From a virus: a stretch of DNA of 46,834 nucleotides. Location: the IMG/VR virus record IMGVR_UViG_3300047496_000217, positions 1 to 46,834 of that record; one strand, written 5' to 3'. Position 1 is the first letter of the stretch. Each line of letters starts with the position of its first letter. The position numbers and the translations under genes were made by a program. This document shows positions 597-21,253 of this stretch, in pieces. The notes under the pieces are model-generated. The model had not been told where the DNA came from and made no database searches. It saw only the letters and a program-made list of their open reading frames with translations.

Positions 597-1928
597 ATGC
601 CTGACTATACAGTCAATGCTCCGGGTAATGTACAGAATCCGTTTACCCCCACGGGATTGGTGGTATTTAATAGTGAGGCATTAAAGAGTGATGCTAATGG
701 TTTTAGGCCAACTATTTTAGACCATGCGCCGTTTGGGCATAATGTTAAGTATAATTTAAACTTCCAGGCTACGATAACCTTAGGTCCGTATAATAGTGGA
801 GATATGATTTATGTAGGTGGAACTGTGATGAGTGGTGCTAATGCCGGCGGCTGGATCGGTATGTATGTCACAGGTACTAACCTAGCAGTATTATGCTGGA
901 TGACCGTAACAGGTACTCGTACCAACATTAGTGCAGGATTAACTTTACCTGCAGCGATTGCCGCTAATGATGTTTATGAGTGTGATATTGCTAATACAGG
1001 TACAACGATTACACTTAGTGCTAAACAAAACGGCACCTCACTAACATTCACAGGAGGTAATACTTCTACCCAGTTTGCTACAGAATCCTCTCTCGCTGCG
1101 GGCGGAGGATATGATGCTTATGATTTCAATACCACTTATCTAACACAGTTTACCGGCACAGGCGTAGCGCCGGCATTAACAGTAGTTCAGTCGGTTAATT
1201 CAACGACAGTTAATGGTAATGAGAGTGTGCAGGTAACTATTCCTGGAGTTACAGCAGGTAATACATTAGCTATTTTGGGATCGTTTTATAATGCTGCCGC
1301 CGGCGTTATTCACACTCCTCCTACCATCAGCGACGTAACTAATGGAAAGGTTCCTTTAGCTGTAAGTGTTCCTAAAGGAACCAACGCCGGGGGAGTTAGC
1401 AACGTACAGTCGTGTGTGTGGTATGAAAAACCTGCTACTTCAGGTTCGATTACCATTAAAGTTGACTTCACTGCCGACGCCATTAATCTAACCTATGCTT
1501 CATTGACAGTGGTTGAGATAGCAGGATTAGCAAATAACCCGGTTGATGCCCCGATTATAGCCTCGGCTAATGGTGGCAGCTCCCAAGGCGCAAACGCTAC
1601 CTCAGGTAATACGTTATCAACTACAAGCGGAATATTGTTAGCTGCGGTGGGAGTAATCAGTACTCCTGGTACAGCAAATATTGGATTAGCTTGTTCAGGT
1701 TTCACCAGCTTAACAGGTTCGCCGCTTAACAATACTGTTAGTGCAATGGGCGTGATGCACTGTTATCAAATTTACAGTGCCGAATCGGTGCCGGCGGCAT
1801 CCTTTACGTGGACTGATGCTGGCACCGCAGGATCCCAAGCCGTCATCGGCGCTCTAAGTGGCAACCCAATAAATCCTCCAGTCAATCCCTTAGTGATTGG
1901 CGGAATTAACGTCCAGGTGTGCCATTGA
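597..1928 (+). CDS. Tail-fibre-associated protein with two lectin-like beta domains
   Basis: 443 aa, starting with ATG immediately after the stop of the giant fibre. The N-terminal ~190 residues look like a jelly-roll lectin/glucanase fold (alternating strands, conserved Tyr/Trp/Gly, segments such as GGWIGMYVTG). After a linker near residue 195 a second beta-rich domain follows (about 200-425) with VTIPGVTAGNTLAI-type strands. No catalytic motif is apparent. Its position directly behind the fibre suggests a second receptor-binding or fibre-capping subunit. No signal peptide or membrane segment is seen. The assignment is by composition and position, not by a recognised family. Confidence 0.6.
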   Translation: MPDYTVNAPGNVQNPFTPTGLVVFNSEALKSDANGFRPTILDHAPFGHNVKYNLNFQATITLGPYNSGDMIYVGGTVMSGANAGGWIGMYVTGTNLAVLCWMTVTGTRTNISAGLTLPAAIAANDVYECDIANTGTTITLSAKQNGTSLTFTGGNTSTQFATESSLAAGGGYDAYDFNTTYLTQFTGTGVAPALTVVQSVNSTTVNGNESVQVTIPGVTAGNTLAILGSFYNAAAGVIHTPPTISDVTNGKVPLAVSVPKGTNAGGVSNVQSCVWYEKPATSGSITIKVDFTADAINLTYASLTVVEIAGLANNPVDAPIIASANGGSSQGANATSGNTLSTTSGILLAAVGVISTPGTANIGLACSGFTSLTGSPLNNTVSAMGVMHCYQIYSAESVPAASFTWTDAGTAGSQAVIGALSGNPINPPVNPLVIGGINVQVCH

Positions 1929-2064: not shown

Positions 2065-2352
2065 ATGGGGTTGATTGTTGAAGATTATATGCTCCCAAAG
2101 GGTGAGCAGTTACACATCACAGAATCATATGTGTCTTCTCCTCCTGCATTAACTATTCAGGACGAAGAAGGTGCAATTTGGACTCTTGGACATGACATGC
2201 AAGCCGGTCCCCACGGCGAATACGCATTTAGTGTTCTCCGAAACGCCCGTCCTACTGGAGCAATTGCCTCCCGTATAGAGCGACGAAATGGTAAAATTAG
2301 AGTTTTCACCGCATCTGGATGGTTGCGGTGGAGTGGTAGAAGTTTCATTTAA
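2065..2352 (+). CDS. Small virion-region protein, unknown function
   Basis: 95 aa. The start at ATG 2065 is chosen because GAAGGAG lies seven bases upstream; an in-frame TTG at 2047 overlaps that ribosome-binding site and is unlikely. The protein begins MGLIVEDYMLPKGEQ and is otherwise mixed alpha/beta with no Cys motif, signal or membrane segment. It lies between the fibre block and the fibre-adaptor gene, after the terminator-like hairpin, so it probably heads a new transcription unit or is read through. Function not recognised; a small structural or fibre-related role is inferred from position only. Confidence 0.6.
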   Translation: MGLIVEDYMLPKGEQLHITESYVSSPPALTIQDEEGAIWTLGHDMQAGPHGEYAFSVLRNARPTGAIASRIERRNGKIRVFTASGWLRWSGRSFI

Positions 2353-2368
2353 CTAGAGGATTATTCAG

Positions 2369-2854
2369 ATGCGTGAGTATATTGTCGCCGGTGCTAACCT
2401 TACCCTGGCCAACCAGGCGGTTACATTGGTATTTGTTAACGTAGGTTCGACCTGCACGATTGAGTTCCTGCGTATGTGGGCGTCTCAGTCATCCACCAAC
2501 AACACTGCCCAGCAGCGTGTTCAGATCAACACTCAGGTCAGTGCTTTCCCAACTCTCGTTTCGCAGACTCCTGCGAAGACCAAACTCCTTGATCCGGCCT
2601 CTCAGATCACTGGTGGTGCTGCCGGTGCCGCTGGTACAGCCGGTGTCAACGCTTCTGCAGAAGGTGCAGGTTCCAAGACTATTTTGTATCCTGATGCATT
2701 CAGCGTCGTAAATGGTTGGCTCTGGGTGCCGACTCCCCCTGAAACTTTCATGCTTAATGCTGGCGGAGCCAGCGGTATGGGCCTCCACCTCCCAGTAGCA
2801 CCAGGATCCCTGGGTAACTGGAACGGCGGCATGGTTTATCGTGAGCTTGGTTAA
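2369..2854 (+). CDS. Virion-region protein, probable structural
   Basis: 161 aa, ATG with AGAGGA eight bases upstream. The N-terminal third alternates hydrophobic and polar residues like a beta-sandwich; a low-complexity Gly/Ala segment (about residues 81-98, GGAAGAAGTAG) forms a flexible linker, and the C-terminus ends in NGGMVYRELG. It may belong to the small beta-sandwich proteins found beside podoviral fibre adaptors, but no specific family is claimed. Confidence 0.6.
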   Translation: MREYIVAGANLTLANQAVTLVFVNVGSTCTIEFLRMWASQSSTNNTAQQRVQINTQVSAFPTLVSQTPAKTKLLDPASQITGGAAGAAGTAGVNASAEGAGSKTILYPDAFSVVNGWLWVPTPPETFMLNAGGASGMGLHLPVAPGSLGNWNGGMVYRELG

Positions 2855-2868
2855 TCGAGATTAGTTAA

Positions 2869-4365
2869 GTGGGTTGGTTCTACCCTCCAGCACCGCAGCC
2901 CCAAGCTGCAGTACCGCACGTCCCTCCGGGTACTGCAGCCGGGCTACCTCTACCTTCCATTGGTAGTGGTGCTAAAAATGCGTCCATCCGCTCTAGCTGG
3001 CTAGCCGAGTCGTGGCCAGCTCAGAGTGGCGCGCATGTGGCTGGAAGGTTAGCTATCCCATTAGCAAGTCCTCCTTTTCCGATTCCTTTTGTTAATAAGT
3101 CACAATTAGGCAATATCCGTAGTCAATGGCCAATGGAAGCTTGGCCAGCTCAGACCTTTTCTGATAATGCTTCGTTTACTCCTGTTGCAATTCAACTTAC
3201 ACCTTCTCTTACACTCACTGCTGTAGATATACTTATCTATGAAAGCTGGCCACGCGAACAGTGGCCTGCACAGTCGAGTGCGACAATTGCAGCAGGATTA
3301 GCTTCTCCAGTAAATCCCCCGGCTAATTATCCACTGCCGAATCCGGCAGTTTTCATGAATATTCGTTATCAGTGGATGCCCGAATGGTGGTATGCGCAGA
3401 GCGAATGTGCAATTGCAGGTGGGTTGGCTCAACTTCAAGTTCCGCCAATTTACCTACCTGTTTCGAATGTTGATGATTTTGCTGTAATTAGAATGGCGTG
3501 GTTGGAACCTGATTGGCGAGCACAATCAGCAGTTCCTGGTGCAGGATTCTACCCACCATTAATTAATGCACTTCCTTTCCCACTTCCTCATAAGGAAGTT
3601 TATCAGTGGCCCCAGGAAGCCTGGCCGGCTCAGTCTAATCCTCGCACGGCACAAACCTTTGCTGGTGTGTTGGCAAGTATGCCTTATATCTCAATCTCCT
3701 CTCAAATGGCAATTCGTGCTATTTGGCCGCAGGAAGATTGGAAGTCCCAACATGCAGCACCTGTTGCTGCCTTGCCGAATATAATTAAGATTATTCCTGG
3801 GACAAACGTCCCGAAGATGCCGATTAAGTTGTGGCCTCAGGAATCTTGGCCAGCTCAGCGCGGTTCGGCAATCGCATCATTTTTTGCTTCAATATTCGTA
3901 CCGCCGAAGGCGGCACCTAATTCTAAGTATCCCTTTGGTGTTATCAATTCCTGGGGTCAACCAAACTGGTCAACCCAACACATTATTAGTCAAACGGGAG
4001 CCAAGCCGTTTAATCCACCCCTGCCGCCTGCAGGATTCTCTGTAATTGATTCAGGAGGCCGAGTGGTGTTATCTCCCAAGAAACTAGGTGAGACCAAACT
4101 TATACCAATGGACTTTATATCCAAGTTGGGTGTTGGTGAAACTATCCTTAGTGCTTCAGCTAACATTGGTGTTTATTCGGGAACAGATCCTTCTCCCGGA
4201 GCGATGTTGTTGGGGCCGATTGGAGTAAGTGGTTCGATTGCAGCACAGTATGTAACTGGTGGAGTTGTAGGTACGGTTTATGAACTACTTTATACAGTAG
4301 TAACAAGTGCAGGTCAAACCCTTGAGTTATCAGGTTACCTGAGTGTCGCTCCTGACTTGATATGA
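2869..4365 (+). CDS. Fibre-tail adaptor protein with nine W-x4-W-x2-Q repeats
   Basis: 498 aa, GTG start. Residues 41-370 contain nine copies of an unusual module with strictly spaced residues: Trp at 44, 87, 127, 169, 211, 247, 286, 322 and 362, a second Trp always five residues later and a Gln three after that. The best copies read WPQEAWPAQ or WPQESWPAQ. Modules are 36-43 residues apart, joined by Pro-rich linkers. Residues about 390-498 form a separate beta domain (segments LGETKLIPMDF, SANIGVYSGTDPSP, GTVYELLYTVVTSAGQTLEL) that matches what I know as the phage fibre-tail adaptor type. The gene overlaps the large terminase start by four bases. A head-proximal or fibre-attachment role is inferred; the repeat function is unknown. 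Confidence 0.7.
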   Translation: MGWFYPPAPQPQAAVPHVPPGTAAGLPLPSIGSGAKNASIRSSWLAESWPAQSGAHVAGRLAIPLASPPFPIPFVNKSQLGNIRSQWPMEAWPAQTFSDNASFTPVAIQLTPSLTLTAVDILIYESWPREQWPAQSSATIAAGLASPVNPPANYPLPNPAVFMNIRYQWMPEWWYAQSECAIAGGLAQLQVPPIYLPVSNVDDFAVIRMAWLEPDWRAQSAVPGAGFYPPLINALPFPLPHKEVYQWPQEAWPAQSNPRTAQTFAGVLASMPYISISSQMAIRAIWPQEDWKSQHAAPVAALPNIIKIIPGTNVPKMPIKLWPQESWPAQRGSAIASFFASIFVPPKAAPNSKYPFGVINSWGQPNWSTQHIISQTGAKPFNPPLPPAGFSVIDSGGRVVLSPKKLGETKLIPMDFISKLGVGETILSASANIGVYSGTDPSPGAMLLGPIGVSGSIAAQYVTGGVVGTVYELLYTVVTSAGQTLELSGYLSVAPDLI

Positions 4366-5819
4366 AAATCACAGCCGAACATGTGGAGGCTTTAAGTGGA
4401 GTATATCTCTCTCCCAAATACGACCAACCTCAACCCACTCCAGATTTCCATCGGGAGTGCTGGGGCAGATATTGCTCGGATGTTGCTGCTGCTGCAACAG
4501 CTGCGCCTCGCAACCATGCAAAATCGACGGGTCTTACCCACGATTATATCCTTGCCAATGTATTACTCCGAGCCGAAGATTACGTAATCCTCATTGGCTC
4601 AAGTGAAGAAATGGCTATTGAACACTTAGGCGACATAGCCAACGAATTACGCGAAAACGAAGAACTAATCAAGGCCTTTGGAATCAAAGAATTCGTTCAA
4701 GATCAAAAAACTGACATAATCGTAGAGGCAATAGATGGGCATCAGTTCCGGATACTCGCCCGAGGGGCTGAGCAGAAGATCCGAGGTAGAAAATGGCGTG
4801 GTAAGCGACCTGGCCTTATTGTCGGAGATGATCTTGAGGACGACGAACAGGTTGAGAATAAAGACCGTCGTGCTAAGTTTCGCCGATGGTTCTTTCGCGC
4901 AGCTAAACAGTCACTCCGAGACGGAGGTAGGATTAGAGTACATGGGACTATACTACACGTTGACTCACTCTTGGCCCATTTGATTAGAAATAAATCTTGG
5001 GCCTCAAAACTATATAAGGCCCACGCAGGATTTAGTGATTTTAGCAAAATCCTTTGGCCGGAGAAATTCCCTGAGGCTCGTCTCCGTTCAATCAGAGCGG
5101 AGTTCATGAACGAAGGCGATGCCGCCGGTTATTCACAGGAATACTTAAACGATCCTCGTGATAACGATGAATCATATCTGCGCATGGAACAATTCATTCC
5201 AATGTCAGATGACGACAAACTCAAGTTTAAGAAAGTCTACGTCGGCGTAGATTTTGCTATATCTAAAGAGGATTCTGCTAATAAAACTGCCTTCGTAATC
5301 GGTGGTAAGGATATGGAAAACCTAGTCCATATCCAGGATTGTCGTTGCGATCGAATGGATGCCCTTCAGATCATTGAAGAGTTTTTCTTTGTTCAGGAAT
5401 GTTATTCTCCTGAAATGTTTTTTGTGGAGAGTGGACAGATCTGGAAAGCCATCGAGCCGATGTTGATTACTGAGATGCAGCGCCGCGACACATGGATTAA
5501 CATTACTCCATTAGTTCCAATTCGAGATAAGAAATCTCGAGGTCGGACCTTTCAGAAACGAATGAAAGCCGGCGGCGTTAGATTTAACACCATGACAAGT
5601 TGGTTTGTCGAATACCGGGATGAATGTTTACTATTCACTGGTGACTCCGAAGCAATGAGTGATGATCGCTTCGACGCTACAGCAACATTATTCCTGGGAA
5701 TGGAAAAAATGCCCAATGTAGAAGAGGACGACGAAATCGACGAAGACGAGTTAGAGTTCACTCGCTTGTCTAATTCCATGCGTTCAGGCTCGGGACGCTC
5801 ACCAGTAACAGGTTATTGA
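4362..5819 (+). CDS. terL: Terminase large subunit
   Basis: 485 aa motor/nuclease that packages DNA into the prohead. A Walker A-like loop is visible at residues 48-56 (APRNHAKST, Lys54), Walker B at 151-159 (GLIVGDDLE), and the C-terminal nuclease carries VGVDFAIS (Asp298), FVESGQ (Glu357) and SDDRFDA (Asp435-439), the usual acidic triad of the RNase H-like fold. The start overlaps the adaptor stop by four bases (ATGA). The portal follows after one base. Length and motif order fit a complete enzyme. The very acidic segment EEDDEIDEDELE near residue 455 is a C-terminal tail after the nuclease domain. Confidence 0.92.
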   Translation: MKITAEHVEALSGVYLSPKYDQPQPTPDFHRECWGRYCSDVAAAATAAPRNHAKSTGLTHDYILANVLLRAEDYVILIGSSEEMAIEHLGDIANELRENEELIKAFGIKEFVQDQKTDIIVEAIDGHQFRILARGAEQKIRGRKWRGKRPGLIVGDDLEDDEQVENKDRRAKFRRWFFRAAKQSLRDGGRIRVHGTILHVDSLLAHLIRNKSWASKLYKAHAGFSDFSKILWPEKFPEARLRSIRAEFMNEGDAAGYSQEYLNDPRDNDESYLRMEQFIPMSDDDKLKFKKVYVGVDFAISKEDSANKTAFVIGGKDMENLVHIQDCRCDRMDALQIIEEFFFVQECYSPEMFFVESGQIWKAIEPMLITEMQRRDTWINITPLVPIRDKKSRGRTFQKRMKAGGVRFNTMTSWFVEYRDECLLFTGDSEAMSDDRFDATATLFLGMEKMPNVEEDDEIDEDELEFTRLSNSMRSGSGRSPVTGY

Positions 5820-10703: not shown

Positions 10704-11627
10704 ATGGCAGTCGGCGGCATAATCAGTACTGGTGCACACCCAAAAGCTCTATGGCCTGGGGTGCACGCATGGTGGGGGCAGGTTTACGATGAACACCCCA
10801 TTGAATATACTGACCTTTACGATGTACTTGACTCAGGGATGGCCTATGAGCAGGATGTACAGGTAACAGGTTTTGGTCTCGCTAACATCAAACCAGAAGG
10901 TGGTGAGGTAACTTACGACTCTGAGACCCAGGGTCCAGTTCAGACCTATACGCACATCGCGTATTCTCTGGGATATATCGTGACGCTTGAAGAGCTTCGC
11001 GATAATCTCTATGAGAAAATCTCGATGAACCGCGCAGAAGCAAATGCGTTTTCGATCACTCAGACGATTGAGAATATCTGCGCAGCTGTGTATAATGACG
11101 CGTTTACTGGTAATGTGTTTTTGAATGCTAACGGACAGTCGCTCTGTTCGACGGCGAACCCGAACACTACTGGAGGTACTTTCAGCAACCGTCTTTCTCC
11201 GGATGCGGATTTGATGGAAGCTTCGTTGGAGGATATTTGCATCCAGGCGATGGGTCTTCAGACCGATCGTAATCTGTATGTTTCGATCCTTCCCCAGTCA
11301 CTGCATGTTGCTCGTCAGGAATGGTTCAATGCGAATCGTATTCTGAAGAGTGTGTTGCAGCCGGGTACTTCGAATAACGACGTAAACGTGCTTAAGGCGA
11401 CGAATGCCTTTCCTAAGGGCATTAAGCTCAATCACTACTTTACTCTGCCCCATGCGTGGTTCGTAAGGACTAATTGTAAGCATGGAATGCAGATGTTCTG
11501 GCGTGATAAGCCGATCTTCGACCAGGATAATGATTTTGGTACGAAGAATGCCCTTGCCTCGACCTATATGAGGTTCAGCGTGGGTGATACTGATCCGCGT
11601 GGTATCTTGGGGAGCAATGGACCGTAA
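10704..11627 (+). CDS. Major capsid protein
   Basis: 307 aa with an AAGGAG ribosome-binding site. The N-terminus GIISTGAHPKALWPGVHAWW and the segments DVQVTGFG, YTHIAYSLGYIVTLEELRDNLY and NILPQSLHV-like strands match the HK97-fold capsid subunits of this type of phage. The order scaffold, decoration, capsid supports the call. The C-terminus ends GSNGP. A stable hairpin 7 bases after the stop (11634-11678) probably separates or stabilises the capsid transcript. Confidence 0.88.
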   Translation: MAVGGIISTGAHPKALWPGVHAWWGQVYDEHPIEYTDLYDVLDSGMAYEQDVQVTGFGLANIKPEGGEVTYDSETQGPVQTYTHIAYSLGYIVTLEELRDNLYEKISMNRAEANAFSITQTIENICAAVYNDAFTGNVFLNANGQSLCSTANPNTTGGTFSNRLSPDADLMEASLEDICIQAMGLQTDRNLYVSILPQSLHVARQEWFNANRILKSVLQPGTSNNDVNVLKATNAFPKGIKLNHYFTLPHAWFVRTNCKHGMQMFWRDKPIFDQDNDFGTKNALASTYMRFSVGDTDPRGILGSNGP

Positions 11628-11633
11628 GGAATA

Positions 11634-11678
11634 GGTTGAGGCCGGGGCGAATACCGTATGTATACCCCGGCCTAAACC
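11634..11678 (+). terminator. Strong hairpin after the major capsid gene
   Basis: AGGCCGGGG (11639-11647) pairs perfectly with CCCCGGCCT (11665-11673), and GGTT (11634-11637) with AACC (11675-11678) across one mismatch. The 17-base loop can form a further small ATAC/GTAT stem. No U-tract follows, so it is more likely an RNA-stability or partial-termination element that raises capsid mRNA relative to downstream genes. Confidence 0.7.
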
Positions 11679-11709
11679 AACTACTTACATCCATTAAGGA
11701 GCACATAAT

Positions 11710-12591
11710 ATGGCACTTTCCCCTCGTTCAGCCGCGCCGGTACGTACGCCGTCGGGCGCTACGACAGATCCGCCTTGGGGTCCAATGGCACAGTCGGGTT
11801 TTGGTAATCCGTTCTTTTACCATCAGTTCTCTGATGATTTCGACAATGCTCTGGGTGCATCGGGACTCTATACTTTAACTGGTACTGGTTCTGCTGCACA
11901 TACTCCAGGTGATGGTGGATTAGGTCTTTTCAGTACTACAGGTTCCGCAAGCACACATGCAACTATTCAGTTGCCGGTTGCTTCGGTGAGCTTGCCACTG
12001 ACGGGTAATAATCCTCCTGTTACTGCAAACTCATCTAAGAAATTGTTTTATCTGGCGAGAATGCAGTTAAGTGATGTTACCCTTACAGGGTTCATTGCAG
12101 GACTCTGTGCGACAGGTGCGCCGTTTACCACGGGAGTTACCAACGTCACCGATGGGCTTTATTTCTATAAAGCTCCCGGCGGCACGGCACTTCAGCTAAT
12201 CAACGTAGCATCTAACGCAGGTTCACCTTCTGGTGCATCATTTACTAATACCTTTGTTATTCCCACGACGGCATATTCACTTGTTGCTGCAACCAACTTT
12301 GACATAGGATTCTACATTGACGGCAATCAGAATCTGTTTGCTTATGTTGGTTCGCAGCTAGTTGGGTGGATTCCGCAGTCAGGAACAGGTGGAGTGAATG
12401 CTGCAGGAACTCCTTCGTTGCCTGTTTTGGGACCTGTCCTTGCGAATTATAACTATAATTCCCAGGGAAACCAGTCTCCAATCATGTATACGACGACTAA
12501 CCTGAATCTTACCTTGGGAGTTAGCAACGGAGTTACCGCAGCCATTAAAACAATGACTGCAGACTTTCATTGTTTCCAGAAAGAACGGTAA
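11710..12591 (+). CDS. Capsid-associated protein with lectin-like fold
   Basis: 293 aa, ATG with AAGGAG nine bases upstream. After a Pro-rich start (RSAAPVRTPSGATTDPPWGP) the protein is beta-rich, with FSDDFDNALG, LFYLARMQLSDV, GLYFYKAPGG and FDIGFYIDGNQNLFAYVG resembling a concanavalin-like jelly roll. It follows the capsid gene, where head fibres or decoration proteins are frequent. It may be a carbohydrate-binding head appendage. No catalytic residues are recognised. Confidence 0.6.
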   Translation: MALSPRSAAPVRTPSGATTDPPWGPMAQSGFGNPFFYHQFSDDFDNALGASGLYTLTGTGSAAHTPGDGGLGLFSTTGSASTHATIQLPVASVSLPLTGNNPPVTANSSKKLFYLARMQLSDVTLTGFIAGLCATGAPFTTGVTNVTDGLYFYKAPGGTALQLINVASNAGSPSGASFTNTFVIPTTAYSLVAATNFDIGFYIDGNQNLFAYVGSQLVGWIPQSGTGGVNAAGTPSLPVLGPVLANYNYNSQGNQSPIMYTTTNLNLTLGVSNGVTAAIKTMTADFHCFQKER

Positions 12592-18360: not shown

Positions 18361-19961
18361 TGCCAGCTGTTCAACTAGCCGACGGCACTTCAATTTCAAT
18401 GCCGGATAAACCAACTGGGCAGGACATTGCTAAACTTAAACAGGTTCAGGCAATCGCCACTACCAGAGCTTCTCAGGGTAAACGTGTTAGTGGTACTGGA
18501 ACTGGAGAAGGTCGTCGGGTAGGACGGCAGAACGTAAAGGATTATCCTGAATTACCTTTTAGTGATAGAACTGTTGTTGCTGCAATGGATAAGCCAGAAG
18601 AATCTAGAGCTTATCTTGAAAAGAAATACGGAGAAGGATCTGTTAGTCAGGATAAACGAGGATTAGTTGTTACTGTTGGTGGCAAAAAAATGCGAGTTTC
18701 AACAGGAATAGCCGCCGACATAACTGCTCAGGCTCCTGAAATGGTACTTGGAACTGCTGGTGCAATTGCAGGTGAAGCAAGTCCTTTGGGTCCTGTTGGT
18801 GCAGTGATGGGTGCGTTTGCCGGTGGCATGGCAGGTAAGGGAATCAAGGAGGATATTAAAACAGCTACTGGACTTAATCGTCAGACACCGGGGGAACAGG
18901 GAAAGTCAGTGATGATGGCAGGAGCCTCGATGGCGGCAGGAGAGGGAGCTGCCAAGGGAGTGGGATTACTTAGAAAGATCCCTGGTCGTGAAATGGTGTT
19001 CGGCACGACGCCTGAAACTAAGGCAATGACTGATAAGATGTTGAAGGCAGGAGCTCGTCCGCCTCCACAGTCAACAATGCCTGATGCTAAGAAATTACAG
19101 CGTGCTGTTATTTTGGCTCAAAAATTAACTGGACCCAACAAAACCATCGAACGAGCTAACTATGGATACCTGCAGGATCATGCTGACTCTATTTTAACTA
19201 AAGCTGGAGTTGGTGGTACTGCTAAAGACGAGACTTTAAGAAGACTCAATCAAGCTGTTCCTGATTCGGCTATGTCATTTCAGGATACGGGTAAATTAAT
19301 CCAGAATAATTCTCGATATATGCTGGGTCCACAAACTCAAGTTAAAGGTAAATCTGCGGCATATCTTAAATCACTTGCGGCTAAAACTAAAACACCTGAA
19401 CAAGCTTATCATGAACTTGTTACTCCAGGCGAAACAGATCGCTTAGATCGTTTTGTTAGTGTGATGGGAAAGAATTCTACTGTTGTACAGGCTGTTCAAC
19501 AACGTGCTTTGCGAGAAGTATTGTCTGGGGCGATGGTTCGTTCGGAACAAGGAGAAGCTAAAGGTGCACTGGAAGCGTCCTTGGGACAGTTCACCAAAAA
19601 GCAACAGAAATTGTTGTTTCCAGGTGGACTTGATAAAGATCTGAAAACTCTTGGTAAAGAGATTCAGTTCCTTTATCCTGCGATTAAGGATCCTGCAATG
19701 GCTGGATTCACCGCCGGCGGCATTCTACAGAAAGTTTGGTATGATCGTTTTTACGCGCAGGGAACTTATGCCTTCATGCGGATGGCTATTCAAAATCCCG
19801 CAGTAATGAGAAGGTTGGCGATTGGACTGGATGGTACACAGCCGGCTCGAGTTGCAGCTAAAAAAGCTATCAAGGAAATGTTCTATCTTGGTGCCTTAGA
19901 AATGGGTTCACCTAATCAAGATCCAGCTGACATCCCGCAGGCGAAGTTGGATAAGAAGTGA
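18360..19961 (+). CDS. Ejection protein with glycine-zipper segment
   Basis: 533 aa. Residues about 120-160 are a small-residue hydrophobic stretch (VLGTAGAIAGEASPLGPVGAVMGAFAGGMAGKG) that looks membrane-inserting, the hallmark of large ejection proteins; I quote only its style here, Gly every third to fourth residue. The rest is helical. No transglycosylase catalytic motif is visible. The gene overlaps the PurD-like start by four bases, so the enzyme is coupled to the ejection block. Confidence 0.62.
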   Translation: MPAVQLADGTSISMPDKPTGQDIAKLKQVQAIATTRASQGKRVSGTGTGEGRRVGRQNVKDYPELPFSDRTVVAAMDKPEESRAYLEKKYGEGSVSQDKRGLVVTVGGKKMRVSTGIAADITAQAPEMVLGTAGAIAGEASPLGPVGAVMGAFAGGMAGKGIKEDIKTATGLNRQTPGEQGKSVMMAGASMAAGEGAAKGVGLLRKIPGREMVFGTTPETKAMTDKMLKAGARPPPQSTMPDAKKLQRAVILAQKLTGPNKTIERANYGYLQDHADSILTKAGVGGTAKDETLRRLNQAVPDSAMSFQDTGKLIQNNSRYMLGPQTQVKGKSAAYLKSLAAKTKTPEQAYHELVTPGETDRLDRFVSVMGKNSTVVQAVQQRALREVLSGAMVRSEQGEAKGALEASLGQFTKKQQKLLFPGGLDKDLKTLGKEIQFLYPAIKDPAMAGFTAGGILQKVWYDRFYAQGTYAFMRMAIQNPAVMRRLAIGLDGTQPARVAAKKAIKEMFYLGALEMGSPNQDPADIPQAKLDKK

Positions 19962-21253
19962 AATTTCTAGTAATGGACATGGCAGGAGATGAAGGTTGTG
20001 GCGTGGATATTGCTGTTCGCGCTCAAGCCGCCGGCCATGACGTTAGATACTGGATTAGTGAAGAATTACCCGTAGCCGACGGCATTTTAAAAAAGGTCAA
20101 GGACTTTGAACCCTCACTTAAGTGGGCCGATCTTACGCTTCTTACTGGGAATTGTGACTACCCCCGAGGACTCAAAACTTACATTAATGAAGGGTATCCG
20201 ATTCTTGGAACGAATAGCGCAATGGCAGAGCTCGAATTGGATCGTGCGCTTGGTCAGAAAACTCTTGAAGATCACGGGATTAAGGTCGTTCCCTATGAAA
20301 CAGTAGAGTCACTGGATGATGCCATTAAGCTAGTTAAGAAAACCAACAAGGCTTATGCCATTAAACCTTGGGGTGGGGAGGCTGACAAGGCAATGACTTG
20401 TGTGGCGAAGGATGCTGATGAAGCTATCTTTATGCTGAGTAGGTGGAAGGCTAAGGGACTCAAAGGTCAATTGATGCTTCAGGAGAAGATCGACGGCATC
20501 GAAATGGGCATTGCAGGATGGTTCGGACCTAATGGATGGAGTGAGTGGTATGAGGAATCCTTCGAACACAAAAAGTTTCTTGTAGACGACCTCGGCTGTA
20601 ATACTGGTGAAATGGGAACAGTTATTAGACATGTCAAGGAGTCAAAGCTCTTTGACATTTTACTTAAACCGTTAACAGACTATCTCCATTCCAAGAAATA
20701 TGTGGGTGATTTTAATGTCAACTGCATCATCGACGAAAAAGGTACGCCCTGGCCCTTGGAATTCACCGCGCGTCTCGGCTGGCCTGACTTTTGTATACGT
20801 CAAGCCGTCATCTATGGCGACCCGATACAATGGATGCTGGATCTATTCAACGGAAAAGATACCCTCGGGGCGACGGATGAAGTTGCCGTGGGAGTAGTGT
20901 TGACTCATGGAGATTTTCCAGTAAATAAGGCCGATGACGATGAACATTCAGGGTTTCCGATACTTGGCATTACAGCTAAAAATATGGACAACCTCCATTT
21001 TCAACAGGTTCAAGAGGGACATTATCCTACTACAAAAGGACCCAAAAAAGGTCTTTTGTCTGCTGGGAATTATCTTATGGTTGTTAGTGGAATAGGGGAT
21101 ACAGTTTCAGAGGCTGCGGCAGAAGCTTATAAAGTTGCTTGGGAGATTAAACTTCCGTCTAATTTGATGTTTCGCACTGACATCGGCGATAGACTCAAAA
21201 AAGATCTGCCGCGGCTTCACAAGTTAGGTTACGCCCTAGGGATGGATTATTAA
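19958..21253 (+). CDS. PurD-like ATP-grasp ligase
   Basis: 431 aa, the usual length of phosphoribosylamine-glycine ligase. The ATP-grasp core is recognisable: AIKPWGG (Lys136), LQEKIDGIEMGI (175-185), the GARS signature region CNTGEMGT (214-221) and LEFTARLGWPD (267-277), corresponding to EFNCRFGDPE in PurD. The C-terminal domain also aligns (VSGIGDTVSEAAAEAY). The N-terminal domain is different: it begins MKFLVMDMAGDEGCG and lacks the GGREHA motif that binds phosphoribosylamine. It therefore probably ligates an amine and an acid other than the purine substrates, or is a diverged PurD. It lies in the virion block, not near nucleotide genes. Confidence 0.75.
   Translation: MKFLVMDMAGDEGCGVDIAVRAQAAGHDVRYWISEELPVADGILKKVKDFEPSLKWADLTLLTGNCDYPRGLKTYINEGYPILGTNSAMAELELDRALGQKTLEDHGIKVVPYETVESLDDAIKLVKKTNKAYAIKPWGGEADKAMTCVAKDADEAIFMLSRWKAKGLKGQLMLQEKIDGIEMGIAGWFGPNGWSEWYEESFEHKKFLVDDLGCNTGEMGTVIRHVKESKLFDILLKPLTDYLHSKKYVGDFNVNCIIDEKGTPWPLEFTARLGWPDFCIRQAVIYGDPIQWMLDLFNGKDTLGATDEVAVGVVLTHGDFPVNKADDDEHSGFPILGITAKNMDNLHFQQVQEGHYPTTKGPKKGLLSAGNYLMVVSGIGDTVSEAAAEAYKVAWEIKLPSNLMFRTDIGDRLKKDLPRLHKLGYALGMDY

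Follow-up and report, generated by a model that had tools for sequence, protein, structure and literature searches.

In phage 7-7-1, linker protein 1 is a relatively unstructured chain that contacts a 135-aa beta-rich decoration protein and is cross-linked through Cys residues (PMC12796354). Tandem repeats in variable number occur in a crAssphage protein, where the repeated unit is BACON, a folded domain of the carbohydrate-binding type (PMC6949934). Regularly spaced Trp residues are found in choline-binding repeats and WW domains. The Gp77 family of fibre-tail adaptors (PF23148, podophage GP4 gp77) includes proteins that are the adaptor alone, such as those of locus L051 (107 aa) and MW202796 (105 aa).

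The locus described here lies in a 46,834-base stretch of viral DNA, which we analysed as a whole and call the window; loci used for comparison carry L numbers. Like the 7-7-1 pair, the window pair, known from sequence and models, would combine a small beta-rich surface protein with an extended, largely unstructured partner chain. The two differ, as compared by description, in that the 7-7-1 linker is disulphide-locked and its description mentions no tandem Trp motifs. Like the crAssphage protein, the window protein has tandem repeats whose number varies, but its units are about 40 residues long, Pro-rich and without a match to any domain model. It shares regularly spaced Trp with choline-binding repeats and WW domains, whereas the spacing and surroundings differ and no Pfam match was obtained in the array at E ≤ 1. 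Its C-terminal 82 residues score above the Gp77 model cut-off, and most phages related to the window by terminase have a Gp77 domain in the same place; unlike the stand-alone adaptors, the window protein carries about 390 residues of Trp/Pro repeats ahead of it.

Table 1. Features of the repeat locus (window positions)
Feature	Position	Strand	Remarks
Adhesin-like protein, 443 aa	597..1928	+	Ends GGINVQVCH; no family match
95-aa protein	2065..2352	+	Third member of the cassette
161-aa protein	2369..2854	+	All-beta, jelly-roll-like in prediction; conserved partner
Trp/Pro repeat protein ending in a Gp77 adaptor domain	2869..4365	+	498 aa; GTG start; homologues start alike (MGHWYNPP, MAGWFYNPP)
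Unit 0, W-F-Y-P-P-A-P-Q-P-Q	2875..2904	+	Single-W; W3 is 41 residues before W44; resembles single-W units of relatives
Module 1, WLAESWPAQ	2998..3024	+	
Module 2, WPMEAWPAQ	3127..3153	+	
Module 3, WPREQWPAQ	3247..3273	+	
Module 4, WMPEWWYAQ	3373..3399	+	Positional orthologue of module 3 in L012-L014
Module 5, WLEPDWRAQ	3499..3525	+	Orthologue of module 4 in L012-L014
Module 6, WPQEAWPAQ	3607..3633	+	Orthologue of module 5 in L012-L014
Module 7, WPQEDWKSQ	3724..3750	+	
Module 8, WPQESWPAQ	3832..3858	+	
Module 9, WGQPNWSTQ	3952..3978	+	
Gp77 fibre-tail adaptor domain (PF23148)	4087..4332	+	aa 407-488; Pfam match; kept upstream of TerL in most terminase relatives
Terminase large subunit	4362..5819	+	phrog_38, E=4e-64; 4-base overlap with the end of the repeat gene

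As shown in Table 1, the 498-aa translation (2869-4362) contains the pattern W-x4-W-x2-Q nine times, with the first Trp at residues 44, 87, 127, 169, 211, 247, 286, 322 and 362 and thus with spacings of 43, 40, 42, 42, 36, 39, 36 and 40 residues; the array runs from the first W codon, beginning at 2998, to the last Q codon, finishing at 3978. When the protein was shuffled 2000 times, the pattern appeared 0.05 times on average and at most twice, and no occurrence was found outside the ORF 2869-4365 in the six frames of the window. The sequence-only reading had described nine modules of fixed W/W/Q spacing, 36-43 residues apart and ahead of an adaptor domain, and its coordinates proved exact. 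Seven of the nine modules have Glu at +3, and seven have Ala at +7. One period ahead of module 1, and in phase with the array, is the single-W unit 0 (W3). Pro content is 13-17% and Trp content 4%, and the charge is low.

Compared with the first unit, the other units are 27-49% identical at the protein level. Mean DNA identity is 40% over units of 108 nt, and several conserved residues are encoded by synonymous codons, which together rule out a recent duplication of DNA. Because of this low DNA identity and the synonymous codons at conserved positions, the array is old and maintained at the protein level. The middle modules keep their positional identity between the window and L012-L014.

None of 24736 Pfam models matched within the array at E ≤ 1, and Gp77 was the sole match for the whole protein. 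No match to the 498-aa protein was obtained in PHROGs or NCBIfam, and a profile of the window protein with six relatives found nothing among PDB sequences at E ≤ 1. The array was thus not recognised as choline-binding, as another Trp-repeat carbohydrate-binding type or as WW domains in Pfam (E ≤ 1), PHROGs, NCBIfam or the PDB. A homology search of viral contigs with the whole protein gave no match, and one of 50,697 phage records gave a weak match in the Gp77 region only. The earlier claim that no known phage repeat family has this signature is therefore borne out within Pfam, PHROGs, NCBIfam and the PDB sequences. The repeat can be regarded as belonging to a previously unnamed family; none of those described in the searched libraries covers it. 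As a general role, an appendage of the phage virion attached through a known adaptor is not new.

The C-terminus of the protein matched Gp77 with E=6.1e-7 and 30.3 bits (curated cut-off 27), and its position next to TerL and neck genes would fit a function as fibre-to-tail joiner in the virion. The domain is fused to the array in the window, while in other lineages a separate Gp77-type gene often follows the array. Among 18 C-terminal or downstream candidates scanned, seven contained Gp77 (best E=9e-22), and the gene downstream of the array in L017/L051, two loci on one contig, matched with E=4e-16; some arrays have no recognised Gp77 nearby. Other terminal domains were also found on repeat proteins, such as PASTA in L014 (E=5e-6) and DUF2793 in L018 (E=6e-16). 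The repeats of L023 are joined to a LamG-bearing protein of 1288 aa, and repeat proteins of L030, L045, L052 and L056 have N-terminal parts that are beta-rich or Gly-rich by eye. PASTA, a domain known from proteins that sense the bacterial cell wall, here forms the C-terminal end of a virion-type protein of a phage (L014:8500-9708, also L012 and L013).

Relatives were collected in several ways. A back-translated search for the DNA pattern of W-P-x-E-x-W-P-A-Q matched seven contigs, of which one was a real homologue (L002) and the other six were chance frames. L002 has seven modules in 402 aa, is 43% identical to the window protein over 265 residues in the best local alignment, and carries upstream relatives of the window 95-aa (74%) and 161-aa (85%) proteins. 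Scans with the 161-aa family reached 46 viral loci, some of them duplicates, and one genome contig; this single locus from the genome collection, L018, is a contig of 8 kb from a MAG that carries the label Ardenticatenales. When repeat ORFs were classified by composition and by eye, Pro/Trp-rich repeats of about 40 residues were present in about 35 environmental phage loci, in about 2 to 19 units (about 2 in L043 and about 19 in the 887-aa protein of L073, counted by eye).

The double-W motif is found in L012-L014 (seven modules), L044, L046, L048, L039 and L050, and partly in L024 and L041. Single-W units, roughly L-x2-I-x2-(A/S)-W-x-P-(x)n-Q, are found in L018, L027, L033, L035, L051, L057, L059 and others. 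Module number, which the sequence-only reading had proposed to compare among related phages, does vary: nine in the window, seven in three relatives, and three to five together with single-W units elsewhere. In L039, L048, L050 and L041 a single array contains double-W and single-W units in alternation, with no change of period. Profiles of the two types aligned in register across the full 42 columns and scored 11.0, higher than all 30 column-permuted controls (highest 10.4), a weak result (p=0.035). The window array has the tandem Pro-rich units of about 40 residues, the Trp anchor and the downstream Gln, and is, by these sequence comparisons, one flavour of a wider Pro/Trp repeat family.

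The 161-aa and 95-aa genes lie directly upstream of the window array. Among 43 loci reached via 161-aa homology (window included, duplicates left out), a Pro/Trp repeat ORF adjoins or is near the 161-aa gene in about 32; in the other 11 or so, several of which are truncated, the gene occurs without repeats. In L031, L038, L040 and L042 it is followed directly by a large tail-hub-like gene and no repeats. These repeat-free loci mean that the 161-aa protein can do without the array. When the repeat alignment was used as the query, the new loci L066/L067, L069 and L071 all had an upstream 161-aa gene (E<1e-70); in L068, L070 and L073 the sequence ends at or shortly before the repeat gene. The 95-aa gene is upstream in 29 of 35 repeat loci.

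The predicted structure of the 161-aa protein is all-beta (pLDDT 91.5, pTM 0.87). Fold matches in the PDB were weak (E≥9e-3) and were to viral jelly rolls, and of viral models 25 matched at E≤1e-3, nearly all uncharacterised, so that no function follows from them. Its family (alignment A6), present in dozens of environmental phages, matched nothing in PHROGs, Pfam or PDB sequences.

Relatives of the window were also collected by terminase (L074-L111, 50-66% for most). In about 27 of 33 such loci TerL is preceded by a Gp77 domain, in most within 0.5 kb. The part ahead of Gp77 is swapped among them and absent altogether in L079, L081 and L090. In L084 (DWPNP units), L085 and L104 it consists of other Pro-rich repeats of about 40 residues, and in L077 of a beta-rich adhesin-like domain and a Pro-rich stretch. 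These other tandem repeats, which are not of the double-W type, lie at L084:1926-3959, L085:3700-5682 and L104:4551-5996. Two Gp77 copies stand in tandem in L083, L084 and L085. The double-W motif was found in none of the 33 loci, and the 161-aa gene in none of 18 whole records, which are metagenomic and possibly incomplete, while six of six positive control records were recovered. Because the terminase relatives keep Gp77 and have neither the 161-aa gene nor the repeats, the two probably entered the window lineage together and were joined to a resident Gp77.

The cassette stands between genes of host-surface type and head and neck genes. Upstream are LamG, fn3, Ig, beta-helix, GH25 and similar domains; downstream are terminase, portal, head-tail adaptor, head closure and major head families, with one tail sheath. 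Across loci its neighbours are podo-, sipho- and myo-like. The window itself looks podovirus-like, since a head closure Hc3 and a DNA-ejection protein are present and no tape measure or sheath was recognised among the genes scanned. By eye, L051 has an apparent tape measure gene, and L056 has a Mu-like sheath gene behind the array. The evidence supports, at the level of gene content and homology, a Gp77 anchor, a three-gene cassette and its apparent mobility between unrelated phages.

Adhesin-like proteins encoded upstream of the 95-aa gene share a conserved C-terminal tail, of the YQPWMQRAPILAQ type or of the GGMNVQVCM type (window), in the window (597-1928), L012-L014, L018, L026, L027, L044, L046, L051 and L057; it is perhaps a virion docking peptide. 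The idea that the tails (e.g. QPYQPWMQRAPILAQ) are single copies of the repeat motif was not supported by a scoring matrix compared with shuffles (z mostly between -1.5 and 2). Some other neighbours were noted. A 431-aa window protein (19958-21253) matched phosphoribosylglycinamide synthetase (PurD-like ATP-grasp, E=7e-10). In L013 a GIY-YIG-like ORF, probably a homing endonuclease, lies at 10795-11739 between neck genes that adjoin in L012 (by eye). Related glycosyltransferase-like proteins are encoded close behind the repeat cassette at L039:6654-7181 and L069:9240-9836, and are probably the two neighbour-scan members that matched phrog_4603 (alpha-2,3-sialyltransferase).

The AlphaFold model of the repeat protein, built with seven sequences, had a mean pLDDT of 30. 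We did not take this as evidence that the array is disordered, as the Gp77 domain was also modelled poorly (52-56 at best). The low-confidence model has short helices ahead of several modules, in line with the unit pattern L(-7), I(-4), W(0), a hint that a short predicted helix may precede each module.

We propose, with about even confidence, that the protein forms a stalk on the virion: a Pro-rich, extended chain, held by Gp77, that docks a small partner, most probably the 161-aa protein, through its Trp motifs. Gp77, at the C-terminus, would fix the chain to the neck of the particle or to its head-tail adaptor region. Each of the nine W-x2-E-x-W-x2-Q motifs, which may follow a short helix, would offer a docking site on a chain that is extended elsewhere. 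The likeliest ligand would be the jelly-roll-like product of the gene just upstream, and a single chain would in this way collect multiple copies of a small protein for display or decoration. The stalk reading is favoured by the joining of the repeats to different terminal domains; we infer the extended shape, the location on the particle and the docking. The linkage of the array to the 161-aa gene can also arise if both products sit in the same part of the virion and do not touch. Of the two earlier suggestions, that the Trp pairs bind nine copies of a virion subunit or bind sugars, the first is strengthened by the array's tight linkage to the gene for a 161-aa protein of virion type and by their apparent joint transfer, and the data speak neither for nor against the second.

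Like linker protein 1 of phage 7-7-1, the chain might instead be laced through the capsid or neck, threaded under or between the 161-aa proteins and stabilising the shell. The 7-7-1 precedent (PMC12796354) and a partner that is modelled with high confidence as all-beta and is jelly-roll-like speak for this, and a cassette that sits by head genes and occurs with podo-, sipho- and myo-type genes suits a head role. We nevertheless consider lacing unlikely, as the repeat proteins are nearly Cys-free whereas the 7-7-1 linker uses Cys cross-links, the fused Gp77 belongs to a fibre-tail adaptor family, and about 2 to 19 units are awkward for a fixed lattice geometry.

It also seems rather unlikely that the Trp pairs form a multivalent glycan-binding array, in which a Gp77-held receptor-binding fibre would grip host polysaccharide by aromatic stacking. 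Although the Trp residues are regularly spaced, the upstream neighbours are glycan-facing (LamG, GH25, beta-helix) and a C-terminal PASTA in relatives suits cell-wall contact, no carbohydrate-binding or choline-binding repeat model in Pfam matched at E ≤ 1. Moreover, single-W units substitute for double-W units inside one array, and a receptor binder, which evolves rapidly, would not usually keep its middle modules conserved at each position, as happens here. A mainly disordered spacer, whose Trp motifs would have no specific ligand and serve only to compact the chain or keep it from aggregating, fits the Pro content, the low charge, the low AlphaFold confidence and the other repeat types that hold the same place before Gp77 in relatives, but is quite improbable because 4% Trp with a fixed W/W/Q spacing despite about 40% DNA identity points to selection on each motif, the tight linkage to the 161-aa gene is left unexplained, and AlphaFold was poor on Gp77 too.

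Under the docking stalk, a broader proposal can be made tentatively, and it is possible though doubtful: unrelated tailed phages of different tail types would each plug one mobile cassette (95-aa protein, jelly-roll protein and Trp/Pro chain) into their own adaptor, and the number of repeats would set the jelly-roll copies per stalk, a display mode that would be undescribed. The analysis reveals, in dozens of environmental phages, a repeat family that had no annotation and its two orphan partner genes, together with evidence that family and partners may move as a unit between phage lineages. If docking is true, repeat number would be a simple way to set the count of subunits displayed on a phage.
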